Assembly: GCA_029975965.1 (NCBI GenBank) | Contig: JARKOV010000156.1 | Location: 1 to 33,598, forward strand | DNA from: Anaerolinea sp. | GTDB taxonomy: Bacteria > Chloroflexota > Anaerolineae > Anaerolineales > Anaerolineaceae | DNA: 33,598 bases | Direction: 5' to 3' | Shown here: positions 245 to 33,598 of the stretch, piece after piece | Numbering within the stretch: the stretch's first letter is position 1 | Layout of the letters: every line of letters starts with the position of its first letter | The notes under the pieces: generated by a model | What the model saw: only the letters and a program-made list of their open reading frames with translations | What the model was told of the DNA's origin: nothing | Database searches by the model: none | Translations under genes and position numbers: made by a program

Positions 245-273
245 TTGACTTTCCCACTCATGCGCGCTACACT
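245..273 (+). promoter_or_regulatory. Sigma-70-type promoter of the aro operon
   Basis: A TTGACT -35 box (245-250) and a TACACT -10 box (268-273) are separated by exactly 17 bp. The predicted transcription start is near 280-282, at or next to the first ATG of the leader peptide at 282. The leader would therefore be translated from an almost leaderless transcript. No other gene intervenes before aroH. Confidence 0.6.
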
Positions 274-281
274 CAAACCTA

Positions 282-368
282 ATGATGAAGACCTTCTCGG
301 CCTCTCCCCGCTACTATTATTTTTATTTTTACGGCAAACGCACACCGGTTGCCGGCGGCGGCGCTTAA
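282..368 (+). CDS. Tyr/Phe-rich leader peptide of the aro operon attenuator
   Basis: This 28-residue open reading frame starts ATG-ATG at 282 and stops at TAA 366-368. Residues 11-17 read YYYFYFY (bases 312-332) and residue 5 is another Phe, so 8 of 28 residues are Tyr or Phe, which is far beyond chance. It lies between a promoter and an intrinsic terminator and precedes genes for tyrosine and phenylalanine precursor synthesis, as pheL-type leader peptides do in enterobacteria. There is no Shine-Dalgarno sequence, which fits initiation at or very near the 5' end of the mRNA. A ribosome paused on the Tyr/Phe run would leave 357-364 free; a ribosome reaching the stop would cover it. The role is inferred from layout, not from homology. 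Confidence 0.8.
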
Positions 369-426
369 GCGGGCGAGAAGAATTCACCTCAAACGTAACT
401 GCGATGCCAGCGGCATCGCAGTTTTT
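357..426 (+). promoter_or_regulatory. Attenuator: candidate antiterminator overlapping the terminator
   Basis: Bases 357-364 (GGCGGCGC), covering the last codons of the leader peptide, can pair with 401-408 (GCGATGCC). This gives six Watson-Crick pairs, one G-U pair and one mismatch. Bases 401-408 are also the 5' arm of the terminator stem, so the two structures exclude each other. Ribosome position on the leader would decide between them: stalling at 312-332 favours the antiterminator, and completion to the stop at 366-368 favours termination. The pairing was found by eye and no energies were computed. Confidence 0.55.
397..426 (+). terminator. Intrinsic terminator of the aro attenuator
   Basis: A perfect 12-bp stem pairs 397-408 with 412-423 around a 3-base loop (AGC), running directly into a T tract at 422-426. 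It sits 28 bases after the leader peptide stop and 19 bases before the aroH start, so it would end transcripts before the first structural gene. Confidence 0.85.
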
Positions 427-445
427 GCTTAAGGAGGAGATAACC

Positions 446-829
446 ATGAGTGTACGAGGGATTCGCGGCGCGACCGTCGCCGGTCAGGATGAAGCCGAGG
501 CCATCCTTGCCGCCACGCGCGAGCTGCTTGCCGCCATCGTCGAAGCCAACCCCAGCCTGGACCCCGCCGACATCGCCAGCGTCTTTTTCACCGTCACCGA
601 CGACCTCGCCGCCGTGCACCCGGCGCTCGGCGCGCGCCAGTTGGGTTGGACGGATGTGCCCCTGATGTGCTCACGCGAGATCCCCGTGCCGGGCTCGCTG
701 CCGCGCTGCATCCGCGTGCTGGTGCTTTGGAACACTCCCCTGCCCCAGGCGGAGATTCACCACGTGTACCTGGGCGAAGCGGTCGCGCTGCGCCCGGACA
801 TCGCAGGCGTCAAGACCGACCCTTCGTAA
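446..829 (+). CDS. aroH: Chorismate mutase, AroH class
   Basis: The 127-residue protein converts chorismate to prephenate, the committed step toward Tyr and Phe. It aligns throughout with the monofunctional trimeric AroH type of Bacillus subtilis. The active-site residues known for that enzyme are present at the same numbers: Arg7, Cys75, Glu78, Arg90, Tyr108 and Arg116. An AAGGAGGAG Shine-Dalgarno lies 431-439, fixing the ATG at 446. An in-frame extension upstream to 110 runs through the attenuator and is not credible. It is the first structural gene after the terminator and is followed by aroF after 42 bases. No regulatory ACT domain is attached, so pathway control probably comes from AroF feedback and from the attenuator. 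Confidence 0.95.
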
Positions 830-871
830 AATCTTACCGGACCGTGTTTAACGGCTATAGGAGAAACCATA

Positions 872-1930
872 ATGATGATCATCATGCGAGCCGACGCAAC
901 CCAGGAAGAAATCAGCGGGATCGTCGAGCGCGTCGAGGCCAACGGCCTGCGCGCGCACCTTTCGCGCGGCGAAGAGCGCACCATCATCGGCGCCATCGGT
1001 GACGGTCGCCCGGTCAACCGTGACCAGTTCCTCATCCTGCCCGGCGTGGACCGGATTGTGCCCATTTCGCGCCCGTACAAGATCGCCTCGCGCGAGTTCA
1101 GCCCCCACAACACTGTCTTCCCGCTCGACGGCGTCGATATTGGCGGCGAGGGGGTGGTGATCATCGCGGGGCCTTGCTCGGTGGAGAGCCGCGAGCAAAC
1201 CCTCGAGATCGCCCAGGCAGTCAAGGAAGCCGGCGCGCACGCCCTGCGCGGTGGGGCGTTTAAGCCACGCACCTCGCCCTACTCCTTCCAGGGTCTGGGA
1301 GAGAAGGGCCTTGAGATTCTCGCCGAAGCGCGCGATGCCACCGCCCTGCCGGTCGTCACCGAGGTGATGGCCCCCGAACAGGTGCCGCTGGTCTCGCAAT
1401 ATTCCGACGTGCTGCAGATCGGCGCGCGCAACATGCAGAACTACGCCCTGCTGCACGCCGCCGGCGAGAGCATGCGCCCGGTGATGGTCAAGCGCGGGAT
1501 GAGCGCCACGGTCGAAGAATTGCTCATGGCGGCCGAGTACGTCCTCTCGCACGGCAACCGGCGCGTGATCCTGTGCGAGCGCGGCATCCGCACCTTCGAG
1601 ACCTCCACCCGCAACACCACCGACATCAACGCCGTGCCGGTGCTCAAAGCGCTCAGCCACCTGCCGGTGGTGCTCGACCCCAGCCACAGCACCGGCAACT
1701 GGGAGTACGTCACCGCCGTGGCGCGCGCCGCCGTCGCCGCCGGCGCGGACGGGTTGATGATCGAGGTGCACACCCACCCCGAAGCGGCCCTTTCGGACGG
1801 CGGGCAGAGCCTCAAGCCGGAGCGCTTTGCCGAGATGGTGCGCCAGGTGCGTGCCATTGCCCAGGCCATCGGGCGCGATGTGGCTCGCTCCAGGCACGCC
1901 CAACCGGCGGGGCAAGGGGCTGCCGCATGA
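872..1930 (+). CDS. aroF: 3-deoxy-7-phosphoheptulonate (DAHP) synthase, type I beta
   Basis: This enzyme condenses phosphoenolpyruvate and erythrose-4-phosphate, the first step of the shikimate pathway. The 352 residues comprise an N-terminal ferredoxin-like domain (about 1-70) and a TIM-barrel catalytic domain. Diagnostic stretches are GPCSVES (100-106, with the metal-binding Cys), [11 protein letters not shown] (131-141), [15 protein letters not shown] and a C-terminal [13 protein letters not shown] segment with further metal ligands. The layout matches the Thermotoga maritima type, in which the N-terminal domain mediates inhibition by Tyr and Phe; sensitivity here is inferred. A GGAG-type ribosome site precedes the ATG at 872. 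The stop overlaps the tyrA start by four bases (ATGA), implying translational coupling. The C-terminal ~20 residues are Ala/Gln rich and probably disordered. Confidence 0.95.
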
Positions 1931-2811
1931 GCGGCGACGGAGAGCCTGGCTTTTTTCTCGCCCACAGCACGGTCGCCATCCTGGGCCTGGGATTGATGGG
2001 CGGATCGCTGGCCCTGGCCCTGCGCGGGCGGGCAGGCGCGTTGATCGGCATCGACCCCGACCCGGCCACGCTGGAACTGGCTGCGCAGTGGAAACTGGCC
2101 GACCATCTCTCGGAGGAGCCCGGAAACTGGCTGGCCCAGGCCGACCTGGTCGTCCTGGCGGCTCCGCTGCGCGCCATCTTCACCCTGCTCGACGAGCTGC
2201 CTGCGCTGCATCCCGGGGCGCCGGTGGTGCTCGACCTGGGCTCGACCAAAGTCGAGGTGGTGCAGCGCATGGCACGGCTGCCTGCCCGCTTCGACCCAAT
2301 CGGCGGGCACCCCATGTGCGGCAAAGAGCGCTCCTCGCTGGTCGAGGCGGAAGCCGGGCTGTACACGGGGGCGCGCTTCGCCCTCGTCCCACTGGAGCGC
2401 ACCACCTCCCGCGCCCGTGCGGCTGCATCTGCGCTGGCGTTGGCGGTGGGGGCGCGTCCACTGTGGCTGGATGCGCACACCCACGACCGCTGGGTGGCAG
2501 CTACCAGCCACATGCCGACTCTGCTGGCCTGCGCGCTGGCAGCCTGCACCCCCCTCGAAGCCGCCCCGCTGGCCGGGCCCGGCTTTCGCAGCACCACCCG
2601 TCTGGCGGCCCAACCGTCCGGTTGGATGCTGGATATTCTCGCCACCAACCGCGCCAATGTCCTGGATGCGCTGCGGGAAGTCCGGGAGCAAGTGACCCTG
2701 CTCGAGCAACGGTTGGAAAGCGCCGATTACCCGGCTCTCCAACAACTGCTGGAGCAAGGCGCCGCCAGCCGCGAACGCATTCTGGCTGTCTCGCCCGGAG
2801 AGACGCGATGA
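1927..2811 (+). CDS. tyrA: Prephenate dehydrogenase
   Basis: The 294-residue protein should oxidatively decarboxylate prephenate to 4-hydroxyphenylpyruvate (or arogenate to tyrosine), the step to tyrosine. An N-terminal Rossmann fold is shown by [12 protein letters not shown] (18-29) and the acidic residue in GIDPD that usually selects NAD. Catalytic-region histidines are in GGHPMCGKE (His128) and ATSHMP (His195). There is no C-terminal ACT domain and no fused chorismate mutase; the mutase is the separate aroH. The ATG at 1927 overlaps the aroF stop and its own stop overlaps aroA, both as ATGA. An upstream in-frame extension into aroF is a shadow. Prephenate versus arogenate preference cannot be read from the sequence. 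Confidence 0.92.
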
Positions 2812-4133
2812 ACCTGACCATTACCCCCGGCCAGCCGTTGCGCGGCTCGCTCAACGTCCCAGGCGACAAGTCCCTCTCCCACCGCGCCGCGCTCTTCGCC
2901 GCCCTGGCCCAGGGCGAGAGCCGTGTGGAGAATTTCCTCGTCTCGGGCGTCACAGAGGCTATGCTGCACGCGCTGACTGCGCTGGGGGTGAGTTGGGAGC
3001 TGCGCGAGCAGGTGCTGCTTGTGAAAGGGGGCGGCCTGGATGGGCTGCGCGCGCCTGCCGCTCCACTCGACTGCGGCAATTCCGCCACCACCCTGCGCCT
3101 GCTGGCCGGCGCGGTGGCCGCGGCGGGCATTCCTGCCGTGCTCGACGGCTCGCCCGGCCTGCGCCGGCGCCCGATGGACCGCATCGCCGTTCCCCTGCGC
3201 CAGATGGGCGTGGAGGTGGTCGCCGCGCAAGGCGGCGGCGCTCCATTGGTCATCGGTGCCCGTCCGGCGGGGCAAAAGCTGCGCGCCGTGCAGTACGAGA
3301 TGCCGGTGGCAAGCGCCCAGGTAAAATCTTGCCTGCTGCTGGCCGGGTTGGCCGCAGACGGCCCGCTGAGCGTCAGCGAGCCGGCCCTTTCCCGCGATCA
3401 CACCGAGCGCATGCTGCGCGGGATGGGCGTGCAGGTCGAAAACCGGCCTCTCCCGGGCGGCGGTTATTGCGCCAGCCTCGTTCCGCCGCGGGCGGCGCTG
3501 CGACCGCTCGCTGGCGAGCTCCCCGGCGACCTTTCAGCCGCGGCTTTCTTGATCGTTGCCGCCCTGATCGTGCCCGGCTCGGAGCTGACCCTCCGCGGGG
3601 TGGGATTGAACCCCACCCGCACCGGCTTGCTGGATGTCTTGCAGGCGATGGGCGGCGACATCCGCATCTCCAACCGCCGTGAGACCCTGGGTGAACCGCT
3701 TGGCGACCTGCGCGTGCGCCATTCCCGGCTGCGCGGCGCGGCGGTTGCCGGCGAGCTGGTCGTGCGCATGATCGACGAGTTCCCGGCTTTCGCCGCCGCG
3801 GCAGTCTTTGCCGACAGCCCCAGCCAGGTCAGCGACGCGGCAGAATTGCGCCACAAGGAGTCCGATCGCATCGCCGCGCTGTGCAGCGAGCTCCGCGTGG
3901 TGGGCGCGCAGGCCGAAGAAACCCCAGACGGCTTCATCCTTTCCGGCGGCGGGGCGCGCGGCGGGCAGGTCGACCCGCATGGCGACCACCGCCTGGCGAT
4001 GGCGCTGGCCGTGACCGGCCTGGCGGCGCAAGGCCCGCTGAGCGTGACTGGCGCCGAGATCACCCGTGAATCTTTTCCCGATTTCGCCGGCGTGCTACGC
4101 CGGTTAGGGGCGCAGGCGAGTGAATCCACCTGA
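2808..4133 (+). CDS. aroA: 3-phosphoshikimate 1-carboxyvinyltransferase (EPSP synthase)
   Basis: It transfers the enolpyruvyl group of PEP to shikimate-3-phosphate. The 441 residues match the family length and its inside-out alpha/beta barrel. Visible motifs are VPGDKSLSHRAALFAALAQG (17-36), CGNSATTLRLLAG (89-101), SPGLRRRPM, ASAQVKSCLLLAG and RHKESDRI. The first two resemble the class II type of Bacillus and Agrobacterium CP4 rather than the E. coli type. At the position of E. coli Gly96, which contacts glyphosate, this protein has Ala93, the residue found in the glyphosate-insensitive CP4 enzyme. It is coupled to tyrA by a four-base overlap. Identity is secure; herbicide insensitivity is an inference. 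Confidence 0.96.
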   Translation: MNLTITPGQPLRGSLNVPGDKSLSHRAALFAALAQGESRVENFLVSGVTEAMLHALTALGVSWELREQVLLVKGGGLDGLRAPAAPLDCGNSATTLRLLAGAVAAAGIPAVLDGSPGLRRRPMDRIAVPLRQMGVEVVAAQGGGAPLVIGARPAGQKLRAVQYEMPVASAQVKSCLLLAGLAADGPLSVSEPALSRDHTERMLRGMGVQVENRPLPGGGYCASLVPPRAALRPLAGELPGDLSAAAFLIVAALIVPGSELTLRGVGLNPTRTGLLDVLQAMGGDIRISNRRETLGEPLGDLRVRHSRLRGAAVAGELVVRMIDEFPAFAAAAVFADSPSQVSDAAELRHKESDRIAALCSELRVVGAQAEETPDGFILSGGGARGGQVDPHGDHRLAMALAVTGLAAQGPLSVTGAEITRESFPDFAGVLRRLGAQASEST

Positions 4134-4149
4134 GCGGCCATTGCACGCG

Positions 4150-5001
4150 ATGCACTATTCCCTCGCCCTGACCGGTTGGCCACTCGGCCACAGCCTCTCG
4201 CCGCAGTTGCACCACGCGGCGCTGAAAGCGCTTGGCCTGCGCGGCGGGTACGATTTGCGCCCGATCCCGCCCGGCGACGAGGTCGCCCTTGCGAGGTTGC
4301 TCGAGTCGCTGCGCGCCGGCGAATTGCACGGGCTCAACGTCACCATCCCGCACAAGCAGGCCGTCCTGGCGCTGCTGGACGAGCTCTCTCCGGCGGCGCG
4401 TGCCATCGGCGCGGCGAACACCCTTTACCGGGTCGATGGTCGCCTGTGCGGCGAAAACACCGACGCGCCGGGATTCCTCGCCGACCTGAGCGCTCGTTTC
4501 GGCGATTTGCCCGCACGCGGCGGGCGCGCGCTCGTGCTGGGCGCGGGTGGAGCCGCCCGCGCCGTGGTCTACGCCCTGGCCGGCTCCGGCTGGCAGGTGA
4601 CCGTGGCCGCCCGCCGCGCCGAGCAAGCCCTCGGAATGGTCGATTCCCTCGCCAGCTCGCTGCCCTCCGGCAGCCTGCGCGGCTGTTCGCTGGCTCCCAC
4701 TGCGTTGATCGACCTCATGCCCATCGACCTGCTGGTCAATGCCACCCCGCTGGGCATGACGCCCGACATCGAGAGCAATCCCTGGCCGGGCGAGGTCCCG
4801 CTGCCCAACTGCGCCTGCGTCTATGACCTGGTCTACAACCCGCGCGAGACGCGCCTGGTGCAGGCGGCGCGAAAGGCCGGGCTGTCTGCCGCCTGCGGAA
4901 TCGGTATGCTGGTCGAGCAGGCTGCCCTCTCGCTCGAGCGCTGGACCGGGTTGCCTGTCCCGCGCGAGGTGATGTTCCACGCCCTCGAGAACCCGGCATA
5001 A
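4150..5001 (+). CDS. aroE: Shikimate dehydrogenase
   Basis: It reduces 3-dehydroshikimate to shikimate with NADPH. Using the ATG at 4150 the protein has 283 residues, the usual length, and begins directly at the first core strand. Motifs are GWPLGHSLSPQLHH (9-22), NVTIPHKQ (63-70) with catalytic Lys69, GAANTL, ENTDAPGF with the catalytic Asp, LGAGGAARAV of the nucleotide-binding fold, NATPLGM and YDLVYNPRET. An alternative GTG at 4120 would add ten residues and overlap aroA by 14 bases; neither start has a strong ribosome site, so the start is uncertain by ten residues. It lies 16 bases after aroA and 77 bases before aroC, the widest gap inside this gene run. Confidence 0.94.
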   Translation: MHYSLALTGWPLGHSLSPQLHHAALKALGLRGGYDLRPIPPGDEVALARLLESLRAGELHGLNVTIPHKQAVLALLDELSPAARAIGAANTLYRVDGRLCGENTDAPGFLADLSARFGDLPARGGRALVLGAGGAARAVVYALAGSGWQVTVAARRAEQALGMVDSLASSLPSGSLRGCSLAPTALIDLMPIDLLVNATPLGMTPDIESNPWPGEVPLPNCACVYDLVYNPRETRLVQAARKAGLSAACGIGMLVEQAALSLERWTGLPVPREVMFHALENPA

Positions 5002-5078
5002 GCGCAGGATGAAATGACCCTTCGATCCACCTGCCCCGCGCTGTTGAACGATTTATAATGAAGATGAGGTGACCGTTT

Positions 5079-6251
5079 ATGCCGCTCCGCTTTCTCACCG
5101 CCGGTGAATCGCACGGACCCGCGCTGACCGCCCTGCTCGACGGCCTGCCCGCCGGCCTGGCGGTTGACGCCGGCTGGATCGACCGCGACCTGGCCCGCCG
5201 CCAGCGCGGTTACGGCGCCGGTCCGCGGATGAAGCTGGAAAACGACCGCGTGCGCATCCTGGGCGGGGTGATGGAAGGCCGCACCACCGGCGCACCGCTC
5301 GCTCTGCAGGTCGAAAACAGCGACCACGCCCGCTGGAAAGGCAAAGCCGTGCCGCCCTTCACCACGCCGCGCCCGGGTCACGCCGACCTGGCGGGCGCGC
5401 TCAAGTATGGCTATTCTGACCTGAGACCGGCGCTCGAGCGCGCCTCGGCTCGCGAGACGGCCGCCCGCGTGGCCGTGGGGGCGGTTTGCCGGGCGCTGCT
5501 GGCCGAGTTCGGCATCCAGGTGGGGGGTTACGTCAGCGCCATCGGCGCGGTGAACGCGGAGCTGGCAGCGATGCCCTACTCCGAGCGCATCGCCCGCGCC
5601 CTGGAGAGCGACGTTTCCTGCCCTGACCAGGCCGCCGCGGCGCGCATGCAGGCCGCGATCCGCGAGATCATGCAGGCGCGCGACACGCTGGGCGGGGTGA
5701 TCGAGGTGGTCGCGCTCAACCTGCCGGCCGGCCTGGGCTCGTATGCCCAATGGGACCGCCGCCTGGAAGCCCGCCTGGGCGCGGCAATCCTCAGCGTGCA
5801 GGCGATCAAGGGCGTCGAGTTTGGCCCGGCTTTCGAGAACGCGCGCCTGCCCGGCACCCGCGCACACGACCCAATCCGGTTACAAGATGGCGAGTTGGTG
5901 CGCCCGAGCGAGCGCTCCGGCGGGCTGGAGGGTGGGGTCACCACCGGACAGCCGCTGGTGCTGCGCGCGGCGATGAAACCCATCGCCACCACCCTCACCC
6001 CGCAACCGACCGTCGACCTGGCCGACGGGGCAGAAACGCCGACGCAATACGAGCGCTCCGATTTTTGCCCCGTGCCGCGCGCCGTGGTCATCCTCGAAGC
6101 CATGACGGCCTTTATCCTGGCCGATGCGCTGCTGGAAAAATTGGGCGGCGACTCGCTGGAAGAGATGCGCCCGCGCTTCACCGCGCTGCGCCGCGCCCGA
6201 CCCGAAGACCTGCCCATGGACGGCCTGCCGCACACCTACTGGCCGGAGTGA
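5079..6251 (+). CDS. aroC: Chorismate synthase
   Basis: It removes phosphate from EPSP to give chorismate using reduced FMN. The 390-residue length is normal. Motifs include TAGESHGPAL near the N-terminus, the basic RRQRGYGAGPRM stretch, GRTTGAPLALQVEN and a conserved GGLEGGVTTGQP segment. The ATG at 5079 has a GAGGTGA ribosome site 5066-5072. The 77-base gap after aroE contains a TATAAT (5054-5059) but no convincing -35 box, so an internal promoter is possible yet weak. The aroKB gene follows three bases later. Confidence 0.96.
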   Translation: MPLRFLTAGESHGPALTALLDGLPAGLAVDAGWIDRDLARRQRGYGAGPRMKLENDRVRILGGVMEGRTTGAPLALQVENSDHARWKGKAVPPFTTPRPGHADLAGALKYGYSDLRPALERASARETAARVAVGAVCRALLAEFGIQVGGYVSAIGAVNAELAAMPYSERIARALESDVSCPDQAAAARMQAAIREIMQARDTLGGVIEVVALNLPAGLGSYAQWDRRLEARLGAAILSVQAIKGVEFGPAFENARLPGTRAHDPIRLQDGELVRPSERSGGLEGGVTTGQPLVLRAAMKPIATTLTPQPTVDLADGAETPTQYERSDFCPVPRAVVILEAMTAFILADALLEKLGGDSLEEMRPRFTALRRARPEDLPMDGLPHTYWPE

Positions 6252-6254
6252 TCC

Positions 6255-7829
6255 ATGACTCATTCTGCTGCGCAAACTCTCTACTTTATCTACGGGCCGC
6301 CCGGCTCGGGAAAAACCACCCTGGCTCGCCGGCTGGCCGCCCTGCTCGACCTGCCATTCGCCGACCTCGACGATCAGATCGAGGTGGATGCCGGGATGAG
6401 CATCCCGGCCATTTTCAACGCGGAGAGCGAGCGCGGCTTTCGCCTGCGCGAGCGCGCCGCCCTCGAAACCGTCGTGCGCAACGGTCGCGGGGTGGTCGCC
6501 CTGGGCGGCGGTGCGCTGCTCGATCCGGCCTGCCGCGAGCTGGCCGAGTCTGCCGGGCAGGTGCTCTGCCTGCTGACGGAGCGCGACGTGCTCCTCGAGC
6601 GCCTGGGGCGCGAAGCGGGCACGCGGCCGCTGATCGGTTCCGACCCCGGCTGGCGCGAGCGGCTCGACACGCTCCTGGCGGTGCGCGCGGCGCACTACCA
6701 CTCGTTTGCCACCCGCCTGGATACCTCCGCGCTGGATCCCGACGAGATGGCGCGCAAGGCGCAGGTCTTGCTGGGCGCATGGCGCGTCGGCGGCATGGGC
6801 GCGCCGTATGACGTGCGCGTGCGCTCGGGCGGGCTGGACGGGCTGGGGGATTTGCTCAAGGCGCGCGGCTTGCAGGGACCGCTGGCGCTCGTCTGCGACG
6901 CCAATGTCGCCGCGATCTATGCCGATCGCGCCGCAACCAGCCTGGAGCGCCGCGGCTACCGCGTCAGCCGGGTGGTGATTCCTGCCGGAGAGGAGCACAA
7001 GAACCTCACCACGCTCTCGACCCTGTGGGATGCCTTCCTGGCTGCCGGGCTCGACCGCCACAGCACGGTGATTGCGTTGGGCGGCGGGGTGACCGGCGAC
7101 CTGGCCGGTTTTGCCGCCGCCGTTTACCTGCGCGGCGTGCGCTGGGTGGCGGTGCCGACCTCGCTGCTGGCGATGGTGGACGCCAGCCAGGGAGGGAAAA
7201 CCGGCGTTGACCTGCGGCAGGGCAAGAACCTGGTCGGCGCGTTCCATCCTCCCTCGCTGGTGTTGGCCGACCCGCAGGTCCTCTCCAGCCTGCCGGCCGG
7301 GGAGCTGCGCAGCGGCATGGCGGAGGTGGTCAAGCACGGCATCCTGGCGGACCTCACGCTCTTTGTGCAGGCCGAGCGCGGCTGGGACGCGCTGCTGAGC
7401 CGGCCAGAGGAAATGGTGCGACGCGCCATGGCGGTCAAAATCGCCTTCATCCAGAGCGACCCGTACGAAAAAGGCGTGCGCGCGGCGCTCAACCTGGGGC
7501 ACACCATCGGGCACGCCGTCGAGCTGGCCTCCGGTTTCACGCTGCGCCACGGGGAGGCGGTTTCGATCGGGCTGGCGGTCGAGGCACGCCTGGCCGAGGC
7601 TCATGGCATCGCCGAGAGCGGGCTGGCGGCGCGCATCGGCGCCTGCCTGCGCGGGCTGGGCCTGCCGGTTGAAATCCCTGCTTCGATCGACGGGGATGCT
7701 TTCGTGGCGGCGCTCAAGGTAGATAAGAAAAATGCCGGCGGGCAGGTGCGCTTCGCTCTCCCCGAGCGCATCGGCGCATACCGCACCGGCGTCGCGCTCG
7801 AGATGGATTTTCGGGAGTTGTTAACATGA
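6255..7829 (+). CDS. aroKB: Fused shikimate kinase / 3-dehydroquinate synthase
   Basis: One 524-residue chain carries two pathway enzymes. Residues ~1-170 are shikimate kinase, with P-loop GPPGSGKTT (14-22), DLDDQIE for shikimate binding, GGGALL and a TRPLI lid-region motif. Residues ~180-524 are 3-dehydroquinate synthase, with [40 protein letters not shown], and the zinc ligands in [18 protein letters not shown] and RHGEA. The steps are non-consecutive (second and fifth of the pathway). The same domain order is annotated in Thermotoga maritima, so the fusion is not unique. No frameshift or internal stop separates the halves. Its stop overlaps aroQ by four bases. Confidence 0.94.
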
Positions 7830-8260
7830 GCTCCTATTTGATCCTTCACGGCCCCAACCTGAACCTTCTCGGCGTGCGCGAGCCCGGAGTTTACGGATCG
7901 CTGACCCTGGAAGAGATCGACGCCCGCCTGCGCGATCTGGCCGGCGAGCTGGGGGTGCAGGTGCGCTGCGTCCAGTCCAACCACGAGGGCGCGCTGATCG
8001 ACGCCCTGCACGACGCGCGCTCCTGGGCTGCGGGGGTGGTGTTCAACCCCGGCGGATACACCCATACCTCGGTCGCCCTGCGCGACGCGGTGTCCGCCAT
8101 CGGCATACCGGTGGTCGAGGTGCACCTCTCCAACGTGCACGCGCGCGAGGAATTCCGCCGCCACTCGCTGATCGCCCCGGTTTGCGCCGGCAGCATCGCC
8201 GGCTTGGGCTGGCGGTCGTACGCCCTGGCGCTGCGCGCGCTGGTCGAGCGCGACGCGTGA
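7826..8260 (+). CDS. aroQ: 3-dehydroquinate dehydratase, type II
   Basis: It dehydrates 3-dehydroquinate to 3-dehydroshikimate. The 144 residues match the small dodecameric type II family. Motifs are HGPNLNLLG (8-16), a following GVYG with the catalytic tyrosine, [22 protein letters not shown] and [18 protein letters not shown]. The ATG overlaps the aroKB stop (ATGA). It is the last recognised shikimate-pathway gene of the run, so all seven steps to chorismate are encoded between 872 and 8260. Confidence 0.96.
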
Positions 8261-8278
8261 GCCAGAGTTGAGTTCCCG

Positions 8279-9121
8279 ATGAATGCCAGCCACTACGACC
8301 CCGCCGCCACTGCGCAGTACTTCGACCAGTTCGGCGAAGGGGAATGGAAGCGCCTGGTCGCCACCCCGCTCGATGAGGTCAGCCTGCACCTGCACACCCA
8401 TTACCTCAAGAAGCATGTTCGCCCCGGCATGCGCGTGCTCGAAATCGGCGCGGGAGCCGGGCGCTTCACCCAGGCGCTCGTCCGGCTGGGAGCGCGGGTG
8501 CTCGCCGCCGACCTTTCGCCGGTGCAGCTCGAGCTCAACCGGCGCTTTGCCCGCCGCTACCGCTTCGCGCGCGGGGTGGAGGGCTGGGACGAGGTGGACA
8601 TCTGCGATCTCTCGCGGTACGCAGATGCCGCTTTCGACGCGGTGGTGGCTTACGGCGGCCCGCTGAGTTACGTGCTCGAGCGCCGCGACCGCGCCCTGGC
8701 GGAATGCCTGCGCGTGCTCAAGCCGGGCGGGCTGTTGCTGCTCTCGGTCATGTCGCTGTGGGGCACGGCGCACTGGGCGTTGAAAGGCGTGCTGGACGTC
8801 CCCGCCGAGCGCAACCGTCGCATCACCGACAGCGGCGACCTGATCCCCGAGCACCTCGCGCGGCGCGGCAACTCGATGCACCTTTTCCGCTCAGGCGAGC
8901 TGCGCGACTGGCTGGCGCAGGCAGAGGTGGAAATTCTCGACCTGTCGGCTTCGTTTTGTCTCTCTCCGGGATGGAACGAAACGCTCACAGAGCTGCGCAG
9001 CCGCCCTGAGCAATGGAACGAGCTGCTGCGCATGGAGCTGGAGGCTTCGGCTTCTCCGGGCTGCCTGGACATGGGCACCCATTTGATCGCGGTGGGGAGC
9101 AAGCCGGCACTGGTCCGCTGA
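8279..9121 (+). CDS. Class I SAM-dependent methyltransferase
   Basis: The 280-residue protein has the SAM-binding motif I VLEIGAGAGRFTQAL (54-68) followed by an acidic strand end in VLAADLSPVQLELN, and a typical RVLKPGGLLLLSV post-motif. The substrate cannot be told from the sequence. It begins 18 bases after aroQ on the same strand with no terminator between them, so it is probably the distal gene of the aro operon. A role in methylating an aromatic-derived product (for example a quinone precursor) is possible but unsupported. It ends 28 bases before the convergent YitT-family gene, and no terminator hairpin is evident in that gap. Confidence 0.85.
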   Translation: MNASHYDPAATAQYFDQFGEGEWKRLVATPLDEVSLHLHTHYLKKHVRPGMRVLEIGAGAGRFTQALVRLGARVLAADLSPVQLELNRRFARRYRFARGVEGWDEVDICDLSRYADAAFDAVVAYGGPLSYVLERRDRALAECLRVLKPGGLLLLSVMSLWGTAHWALKGVLDVPAERNRRITDSGDLIPEHLARRGNSMHLFRSGELRDWLAQAEVEILDLSASFCLSPGWNETLTELRSRPEQWNELLRMELEASASPGCLDMGTHLIAVGSKPALVR

Positions 9122-9149
9122 GCACCGCCGGCCTGCCAGCCTTCGCCTA

Positions 9150-10067
9150 TCACTTCAACGGCCGGAAACCCTCTCCCAGCGCCTCGTGCGCCTGCCCAAT
9201 CACCATGAACGCCCGGGGGTCGACCTCCTTGACGATGGCTTTGATCCGGCTCACCTCCGGGCGGGTGATCACGCAGTACACCACCGGGCGCTCGCTGTTG
9301 GTGTACGCGCCCGTCCCGCTCAATATGGTCACCCCCCGCTCCATCTCGACCATGATCTTGCGCGACACATCCTCCGGGCAACTGGTCACAATCAACGCCG
9401 TGCGGAAGATGCTCGAGCCTTCCAGCACCATCTCGGCCACCAACCCGCTGACGTAGGTCACCGCCAGGGCATACAGGGCGTTCTCCCAGGCGAACACCAG
9501 CCCCGAAGCCAGGATGACGATCGAATCGGTGATCAGGTAAGCCTGCGAGATAGAAATGCCGGTCTTCTCATGCAGGATGCGCCCCAGGATGTCGCTCCCT
9601 CCGCTGGTGCCTTTGCCGCGGTAGACCAGGCCCAGCCCGGCGCCCAGCACCACCGCGCCATATAAACAGTTGAGGAACAGGTCGTGCACCACCCCGTCAG
9701 CGGGCAAGAACAGCCCCAGCAGGTCGGTGAAGAGCGAAAACGCGGTCACCGAAAGAGCCGTGCGCAGCGCGAAGCGCGGACCGCCCAGGTGGCGCCAGCC
9801 GAGCAAGAAGAGCGGCGCGTTGCCGATGAAGATCATCAAGCCGATCGGCCAGCCGGTGAAATGGTTGATCAACTGAGACGTCCCGCTGATCCCCCCGCTG
9901 ACCAGTTGCGCCGGGATAAGGAACAGGCGCATGGCGAACGCCTGGACCAACGCCCCCAGCAGCACGTAGCTGTAATCGACGAGCGAGTCGCGTGAAAAGT
10001 CGAAGCTGCGCAGCATCTGGCCCAGCCGCTCGCGCGTCGATGAAGGTGTAAATTGCGGATTACCCAT
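9150..10067 (-). CDS. YitT family membrane protein
   Basis: The 305-residue protein has about five hydrophobic segments between residues ~32 and 205, including the family-typical SGGISGTSQL and GKGTSGGSDILGRI stretches. A C-terminal cytosolic DUF2179-type domain follows (from ~ residue 222: FRTALIVTSCPEDVSRKI to KEVDPRAF). This is the YitT/YvjA family, of unknown transport or signalling role. The ATG at 10067 is followed by a hydrophilic N-terminus. It is convergent with the methyltransferase and divergent from the restriction-modification genes. Confidence 0.88.
   Translation of the reverse strand: MGNPQFTPSSTRERLGQMLRSFDFSRDSLVDYSYVLLGALVQAFAMRLFLIPAQLVSGGISGTSQLINHFTGWPIGLMIFIGNAPLFLLGWRHLGGPRFALRTALSVTAFSLFTDLLGLFLPADGVVHDLFLNCLYGAVVLGAGLGLVYRGKGTSGGSDILGRILHEKTGISISQAYLITDSIVILASGLVFAWENALYALAVTYVSGLVAEMVLEGSSIFRTALIVTSCPEDVSRKIMVEMERGVTILSGTGAYTNSERPVVYCVITRPEVSRIKAIVKEVDPRAFMVIGQAHEALGEGFRPLK

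Positions 10068-33501: not shown

Positions 33502-33598
<97 letters not shown>

Follow-up and report, generated by a model that had tools for sequence, protein, structure and literature searches.

The DNA upstream of aroH in the window (the whole stretch of 33,598 nucleotides that was analysed) very probably specifies a ribosome-mediated transcription attenuator of the operon aroH-aroF-tyrA-aroA-aroE-aroC-aroKB-aroQ, a reading to which we assign a probability of about 0.9 on sequence evidence. A short open reading frame (ORF) with a run of Tyr and Phe codons, an intrinsic terminator and competing complementarities between them are all present in the window, and all are conserved in relatives. 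The type of mechanism is known, and the bacterial group appears, as far as we found, to be new for it.

A first-pass annotation of this DNA had placed a promoter, a Tyr/Phe-rich ORF and a terminator ahead of aroH, together with an exclusive pairing of 357-364 with 401-408 that overlaps the last leader codons. All of these were recovered in the window, the complementarity in relatives as well, and the layout is as follows.

245-273, forward strand: sigma-70-type promoter TTGACT-17-TACACT, 9/12 consensus matches, similarly placed relative to the leader ATG in relatives
282-368, forward strand: leader peptide ORF of 28 amino acids, adjacent ATGs at 282 and 285, no Shine-Dalgarno sequence, likely leaderless, stop codon UAA at 366-368
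293-299 and 307-312, forward strand: 5' strand of the long-range helix P0, partner 368-380, -20.1 kcal/mol, covariation by permutation test
312-332, forward strand: predicted sensing codons Tyr-Tyr-Tyr-Phe-Tyr-Phe-Tyr (YYYFYFY), read in the leader ORF
332-354, forward strand: P1 hairpin, just 3' of the sensing codons, -10.2 kcal/mol, putative pause hairpin
357-364, forward strand: predicted antiterminator (P2), 5' strand, within the last leader codons
368-380, forward strand: 3' strand of P0, directly after the leader stop, putative anti-antiterminator
397-426, forward strand: intrinsic terminator, 12-bp stem of 397-408 with 412-423, loop of 3 nt, T run from 422, -19.5 kcal/mol
401-408, forward strand: predicted antiterminator, 3' strand, lying within the 5' arm of the terminator
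431-437, forward strand: Shine-Dalgarno sequence of aroH, AAGGAGG, read by eye
446-829, forward strand: aroH, chorismate mutase (TIGR01796 above cut-off)
872-1930, forward strand: aroF, DAHP synthase (NF006421 and TIGR01361 above cut-off)
1927-2811, forward strand: tyrA, prephenate/arogenate dehydrogenase (prephenate dehydrogenase models, best E 1.4e-46, all below curated cut-offs; start by eye)
2808-4133, forward strand: aroA, EPSP synthase (TIGR01356 above cut-off; start by eye)
4120-5001, forward strand: aroE, shikimate dehydrogenase (TIGR00507 above cut-off)
5079-6251, forward strand: aroC, chorismate synthase (NF003793 and TIGR00033 above cut-off)
6255-7829, forward strand: aroKB, fused shikimate kinase / dehydroquinate synthase (TIGR01357, aroB, above cut-off; fusion model NF010627 E 3.6e-90, below its cut-off)
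7826-8260, forward strand: aroQ, type II dehydroquinate dehydratase (TIGR01088 above cut-off)

The eight genes downstream of the leader were assigned to the chorismate pathway with NCBIfam, and a scan of 430-9400 found no promoter-like or terminator-like site, making a single transcript plausible. Close behind aroQ lies a methyltransferase-like gene (8279-9121) that NCBIfam methyltransferase models match only weakly, and a 16S rRNA gene begins at the end of the window (33502-33598). No gene was seen in the ∼245 bases at the start of the window, where an inverted repeat (GAGGTTGTTTTCGCCG...CGGCGAAAACAACCTC, 119-158) 5' of the promoter may be either a repeat element or the terminator of a gene lying further upstream. 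Against shuffled sequence, one promoter of the TTGACT-17-TACACT grade was found in 1-900 (0.3 expected), and a terminator-type hairpin taken alone is not rare in this region (one found, 1.2 expected). Seven Tyr or Phe residues in nine, as in the window, occurred in 0/1000 dinucleotide shuffles of its upstream region. Folding of the leader RNA, proposed as a check in the first-pass annotation, gave for 275-445 a structure better than all 200 shuffles (z -3.57).

Conservation was assessed at 80 named loci whose aroH is related to that of the window, taken as the best 80 of 585 candidates, among which the closest named relative is the aroH of Anaerolinea thermolimosa (class Anaerolineae, phylum Chloroflexota; 79% identity). 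A leader was scored as an ORF with at least five Tyr or Phe residues in nine, at loci with at least 300 nt upstream; L004, L016, L024 and L040, with less than 300 nt, were left out of the ORF test, as was L088. A Tyr/Phe-rich leader precedes aroH in 74/76 named relatives (73 found by script plus L007 by eye, whose leader is below the five-in-nine threshold), with 2/76 reverse complements and 52/1520 shuffles passing the same ORF test. The script count is also 74/76 by coincidence, since it includes the false L022 and misses L007. The L022 candidate was rejected as the tail of an upstream ORF reading as PheA, with an ACT domain just under the Pfam cut-off. Neither L022 nor L052 has a leader directly 5' of aroH, and this ACT-domain ORF and a DAHP synthase gene, respectively, adjoin aroH instead.

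The leader extends well into the class. From 100 Anaerolineae genomes drawn, 69 of them with aroH, the upstream regions of 60 were taken and 59 were long enough; 52/59 loci pass the ORF test by script, compared with 0/59 reverse complements and 15/1180 shuffles. Including three displaced leaders seen by eye, 55/59 loci have a Tyr/Phe leader, or 54/58 new ones, as L082 is the same locus as L041 of the named set. The displaced leaders match our RNA model R1, for which 60 of the 75 near sequences were used, at E 1.9e-4, 0.015 and 0.09. In two of these cases (genomes G016 and G052, loci L144 and L145) a LysE-type exporter gene separates the leader from aroH (Pfam tested on the L145 protein), an arrangement that would place the exporter gene under the same switch as aroH. 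The third (genome G054, locus L146) lies between aroH and a pheA-aroF pair, the genes being named by eye. No leader was found at the class-sample loci L086, L105 and L134, and the candidate at L137 is weak. Scanned with strict filters over the 100 class genomes, R1 finds few distant loci (23 genomes with E no higher than 0.1, of which 13 have E under 0.01), and the Tyr/Phe ORF scan is the better detector of distant leaders. A lack of conservation in relatives, which the first-pass annotation would have counted against its reading, was not observed: close relatives retain the run of Tyr and Phe codons together with the terminator and an antiterminator strand at the leader end, and most of the class sample retains these elements in altered sequence. 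Such conservation makes a chance origin of the leader very unlikely; a chance ORF or hairpin was rejected on it together with the covariation of the terminator and P1 and the in-frame codon signature described below.

The Tyr/Phe stretch is, on its codon composition, a coding run. Across 75 leaders the T-rich stretch holds, in the leader frame, 418 TT or TA codons ending in a pyrimidine (Phe, Tyr) versus two ending in a purine (Leu, stop), whereas the pyrimidine/purine endings in the other two frames are 125/65 and 116/191. Both Tyr and Phe occur in 74/75 runs; Trp occurs in 33/75, and the run of the window consists of Tyr and Phe only. A coding run could also belong to a small functional peptide acting in trans, with the hairpin as the ordinary terminator of its gene. 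One clade has a strikingly conserved peptide, roughly MLKSxRWFAFYFYYGFRxSVAVGGA, and one leader peptide, S. meliloti peTrpL, is reported to have a function in trans. We nevertheless consider such a peptide highly improbable here. Of the 75 leaders, 60 read the terminal RNA motif in frame and 11 read it in another frame (four are unassigned), indicating that in those 11 the RNA and not the peptide is conserved. In the class sample the peptide varies widely outside the Tyr/Phe run, within which Tyr and Phe interchange, and the complementarity of the antiterminator would be superfluous to a peptide acting in trans.

The hairpins of the proposed attenuator are conserved as structures. Between leader and aroH a hairpin arm of at least nine is present in 74/75 relatives and interrupted in L063, although the routine used always returns the best hairpin. 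In an alignment of 60 of the 75 leader sequences (A2), 92.9% of the cells of the terminator and P1 taken together are paired, 15/20 pairs show two-sided changes, and 0/500 shuffles and no slid version pair as well. The terminator alone has two-sided changes in 11/12 stem pairs, and P1 in 4/8 pairs, with 87.2% of its cells paired.

A further helix, P0, forms between the codons that lead into the Tyr/Phe run and the bases that follow the stop codon. The minimum-energy fold of 275-445 retains the seven outer pairs of P0 (293-299 with 374-380) and has other pairs in place of the inner ones. P0 was assessed by permutation instead of a pair-by-pair count because its 5' strand sits at a variable distance; shared ancestry remains in the statistics of this test, as in those given for P2 below. 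At 72 of the 75 loci (L010, L043 and L061 dropped) the strands of the same locus pair on average at -11.1 kcal/mol versus -9.7 for permuted partners (z -6.0, 0/5000 permutations as good), and thinning to 35 loci leaves z at -5.4. The class sample gave z -3.0 (3/2000), an initial shorter window having given only z -1.4 (165/2000). P0 encloses the antiterminator strand and should thereby keep the switch off when no ribosome occupies the Tyr/Phe codons, making it probably an anti-antiterminator. Pairing of P2 across P0 could also produce a pseudoknot in which both coexist.

In the antiterminator of the window, 357-364 pairs with 401-408 (-11.0 kcal/mol) at 7/8 positions; one of these pairs is G-U, and the mismatch, at 361/404, is G-A. 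The fold of 346-412, the part that a stalled ribosome would leave free, is the antiterminator. On A2, 84.8% of the P2 cells are paired, with little covariation in the clade of the window, clade A (2/9 pairs), and when P1 is included 101/500 shuffles match the count of two-sided pairs in that clade. This low covariation fits a strand on which leader codons and terminator both impose constraints. At columns 134 and 135 the terminator pairs have two-sided changes in 21 and 24 of the 60 sequences; these columns form the end of P2 that tolerates mismatches, being unpaired in P2 in 9 and 26 of 60. Columns 136-138 and 142, also used by P2, are changed in at most 4/60. More distant genomes (clade B) use a different sequence pair for P2, for example GCUGCUUCACGCC with AGCGUGGAGCAG. 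In clade B, tested on the 35 of 53 loci with a recognisable GCG(T/C)GGA arm, own pairs average -18.4 versus -17.1 kcal/mol for permuted ones (z -4.0, 1/5000), and clade B P2 strands offered clade A terminator arms average -11.0. The exchange does not support the pairing in the other direction, clade A strands averaging -13.1 with clade B arms versus -11.9 with their own, and the clade A permutation signal falls from z -2.9 to -1.2 after thinning to 42. Covariation of the antiterminator is, by these comparisons, clear only in clade B.

The spacing of these parts was judged against the size of the ribosome footprint. In the window, 24 nt separate the last Tyr codon from the P2 strand; over 75 leaders the median is 22 nt, and that to the stop codon 33 nt. 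The window and the medians fit a P2 strand that would be free at the stall site and covered at the stop. The automatically placed P2 begins within 13 nt of the last Tyr/Phe codon in 20/75, too close for a stalled ribosome, perhaps as a result of the program choosing longer duplexes.

Leader translation probably begins on a leaderless mRNA, in the near clade only. There 10 nt separate the end of the -10 box from the ATG in 50/75 leaders, and 8-12 nt in 60/75, and a Shine-Dalgarno-like word precedes the leader ATG in 5/75 versus 74/75 for aroH; this spacing and the missing Shine-Dalgarno sequence suggest a leaderless message. The two ATGs of the window stand 8 and 11 nt from the -10 box. In the class sample a promoter with at least 9/12 matches lies 5-13 nt before a usable start in only 10/53 leaders. 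A leaderless mRNA has been described for S. meliloti trpL.

From this anatomy we infer the following course of events. RNA polymerase would start on the leader AUG or within a few bases 5' of it, and ribosomes would load on this AUG without a Shine-Dalgarno sequence. With ample Tyr-tRNA and Phe-tRNA the ribosome would reach the UAA at 366-368 and cover 357-364, the terminator (397-423) would form, and transcription would stop before aroH. Under a shortage of Tyr or Phe, it would stall at 312-332 instead and open the 293-312/368-380 helix, leaving 357-364 free to pair with 401-408, so that no terminator forms and the whole aro operon is transcribed. With no ribosome on the leader, P0 would re-form and disfavour the antiterminator, giving a default-off state. 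The core of this model, stalling on Tyr/Phe codons that decides between antiterminator and terminator, is that of the first-pass annotation and is supported here; that account had missed the covarying P0, with the default-off state it would provide, and the likely leaderless start.

The response to Tyr and Phe is itself a prediction, and the same anatomy might serve without amino-acid sensing if the U-rich run and the hairpins caused RNA polymerase pausing or a constitutive partial termination. We give this account very little credence, in view of the match between codons and genes: the run of the window contains only Tyr and Phe and stands at the operon for Tyr and Phe, and runs of Thr/Met and His codons occur at some aspartokinase and his loci, respectively. 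R1 also matched two aspartokinase-asd loci (E 1.8e-4 and 0.024) whose leaders read MFEQRDSWMTTTMMTTTPKRVAVASS and MIFQTRTMSTGTMMTTTPHRVAVASSWM; a generic scan added more Thr/Met leaders ahead of aspartokinase genes and, in the vicinity of hisG, leaders with HHH. With the promoter filter on, 3/30 aspartokinase and 3/30 his loci have a leader, compared with 0/30 in each of five swapped-code controls. In some Anaerolineae genomes aspartokinase genes are preceded by Thr/Met-rich leader ORFs with terminators, at L141 (reverse strand, upstream of the gene), L142/L187, L184, L185, L202 and L206, and His-His-His leader ORFs with a promoter near the ATG and a terminator occur at L218, L219 and L225, those of L218 and L225 preceding ORFs that read by eye as hisZ-hisG-hisD. 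Antiterminator pairing is clearly better than in shuffles at L184 and L185 (-24.1 and -27.0 vs -17.6 and -17.9), modestly better at L141 and L142, level at L219, and no better than shuffles at L202, L206, L218 and L225. Given these mixed pairings, and with most aspartokinase and his loci lacking such a leader, kinship with the aro leader is a lead to follow. No branched-chain leader was found before ilvB in 30 loci.

Tryptophan appears to be handled differently. A Trp leader before trpE was sought and rejected, there being no Trp codon runs in 30 loci and a T-box instead in nine of the 20 of these given to Rfam (L152, L154, L156, L158, L159, L161, L162, L165 and L166, which include the genome of L001). 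A T-box binds tRNA directly, without a ribosome. The family (RF00230) senses tRNA charging and controls termination, as the proposed attenuator would, but in this class it is found at trpE and not at the aro leader. In these genomes Trp would be sensed by a T-box and Tyr/Phe by a leader peptide; in A. thermolimosa the T-box beside trpE lies ∼7 kb from the aro leader (contig position 3192733-3192871). The presence of T-boxes in the class notwithstanding, an RNA element read directly by uncharged tRNA or a metabolite, with the ORF incidental, is the least credible account of the aro leader and can be set aside, since the run carries a coding signature in frame and Rfam returned at 150-500 only two matches far below their gathering scores (Leu_leader, 14.8 bits vs 50; sR45, 12.9 vs 40), with no family above its gathering score at the leader and T-box RF00230 unmatched, on which ground a T-box or riboswitch identity was rejected.

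Taking the loci together, we put forward, tentatively and at somewhat less than even odds, that the Anaerolineae may own a swappable attenuator chassis in which the sensing codons are exchanged, Tyr/Phe (often with Trp) for aro, Thr/Met for aspartokinase-asd and His for hisZGD, beside trp T-boxes in the same genomes. It would combine a start lacking a Shine-Dalgarno sequence with a pause hairpin, an anti-antiterminator formed over a long range and an antiterminator encoded in the last codons.

The attenuators of Escherichia coli pheA, pheST and trp sense one amino acid each, have a leader with a Shine-Dalgarno sequence and control genes of a terminal branch or of a synthetase where the aro leader stands before the whole chorismate pathway. 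They resemble the window in their codon run, alternative hairpins and terminator before the first gene, as portrayed in the sections consulted (pheA with its leader pheL; PMC11802643). The first-pass annotation knew of no Tyr/Phe attenuator for a complete aro operon in this kind of organism. This view needs correction in that Corynebacterium glutamicum aroR-aroF is a known functional analogue, the closest we found: a leader peptide with Phe-Tyr-Phe precedes an operon containing aroF, and transcription rises under Phe limitation, according to the portions consulted (PMC11802643, PMC4046766). The likeness, an aromatic leader before a DAHP synthase operon, is one of function. C. glutamicum belongs to another phylum, its leader has three aromatic residues versus seven in the window, and the same portions report that it does not respond to Tyr; they contain no mention of a long-range helix and, of the operon's content, name only aroF. 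The C. glutamicum ilvBNC operon is discussed in the part consulted as a leaderless mRNA with anti-antiterminator, antiterminator and terminator hairpins that match P0, P2 and P3, but it concerns branched-chain amino acids, other genes and another phylum (PMC11857589). Attenuators before tyrA/aro supraoperons, clusters with most Phe and Tyr genes, are predicted in the Merino database, and the table rows consulted include no Chloroflexota and no Tyr/Phe leader peptide (PMC1173090). The sources, as far as consulted, place leader-peptide attenuation in Proteobacteria, Actinobacteria and some Firmicutes, and for Chloroflexota they report T-boxes (PMC2494555) and riboswitches. We found no description of a Tyr/Phe attenuator in Chloroflexota, in a search whose scope took in few subscription journals. 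The features that would set the Anaerolineae element apart are its covarying anti-antiterminator and its probably leaderless start.

If the attenuator reading is true, a widespread Tyr/Phe attenuator over the whole chorismate pathway in the Anaerolineae would add a phylum to those using this form of control. In A. thermolimosa, a single genome would hold both a ribosome-reading and a tRNA-binding sensor, and the question of why related amino acids are sensed by different means within one cell could be put to a compact system. The aro leader would moreover provide a recognisable control point in bacteria that are mostly uncultured.
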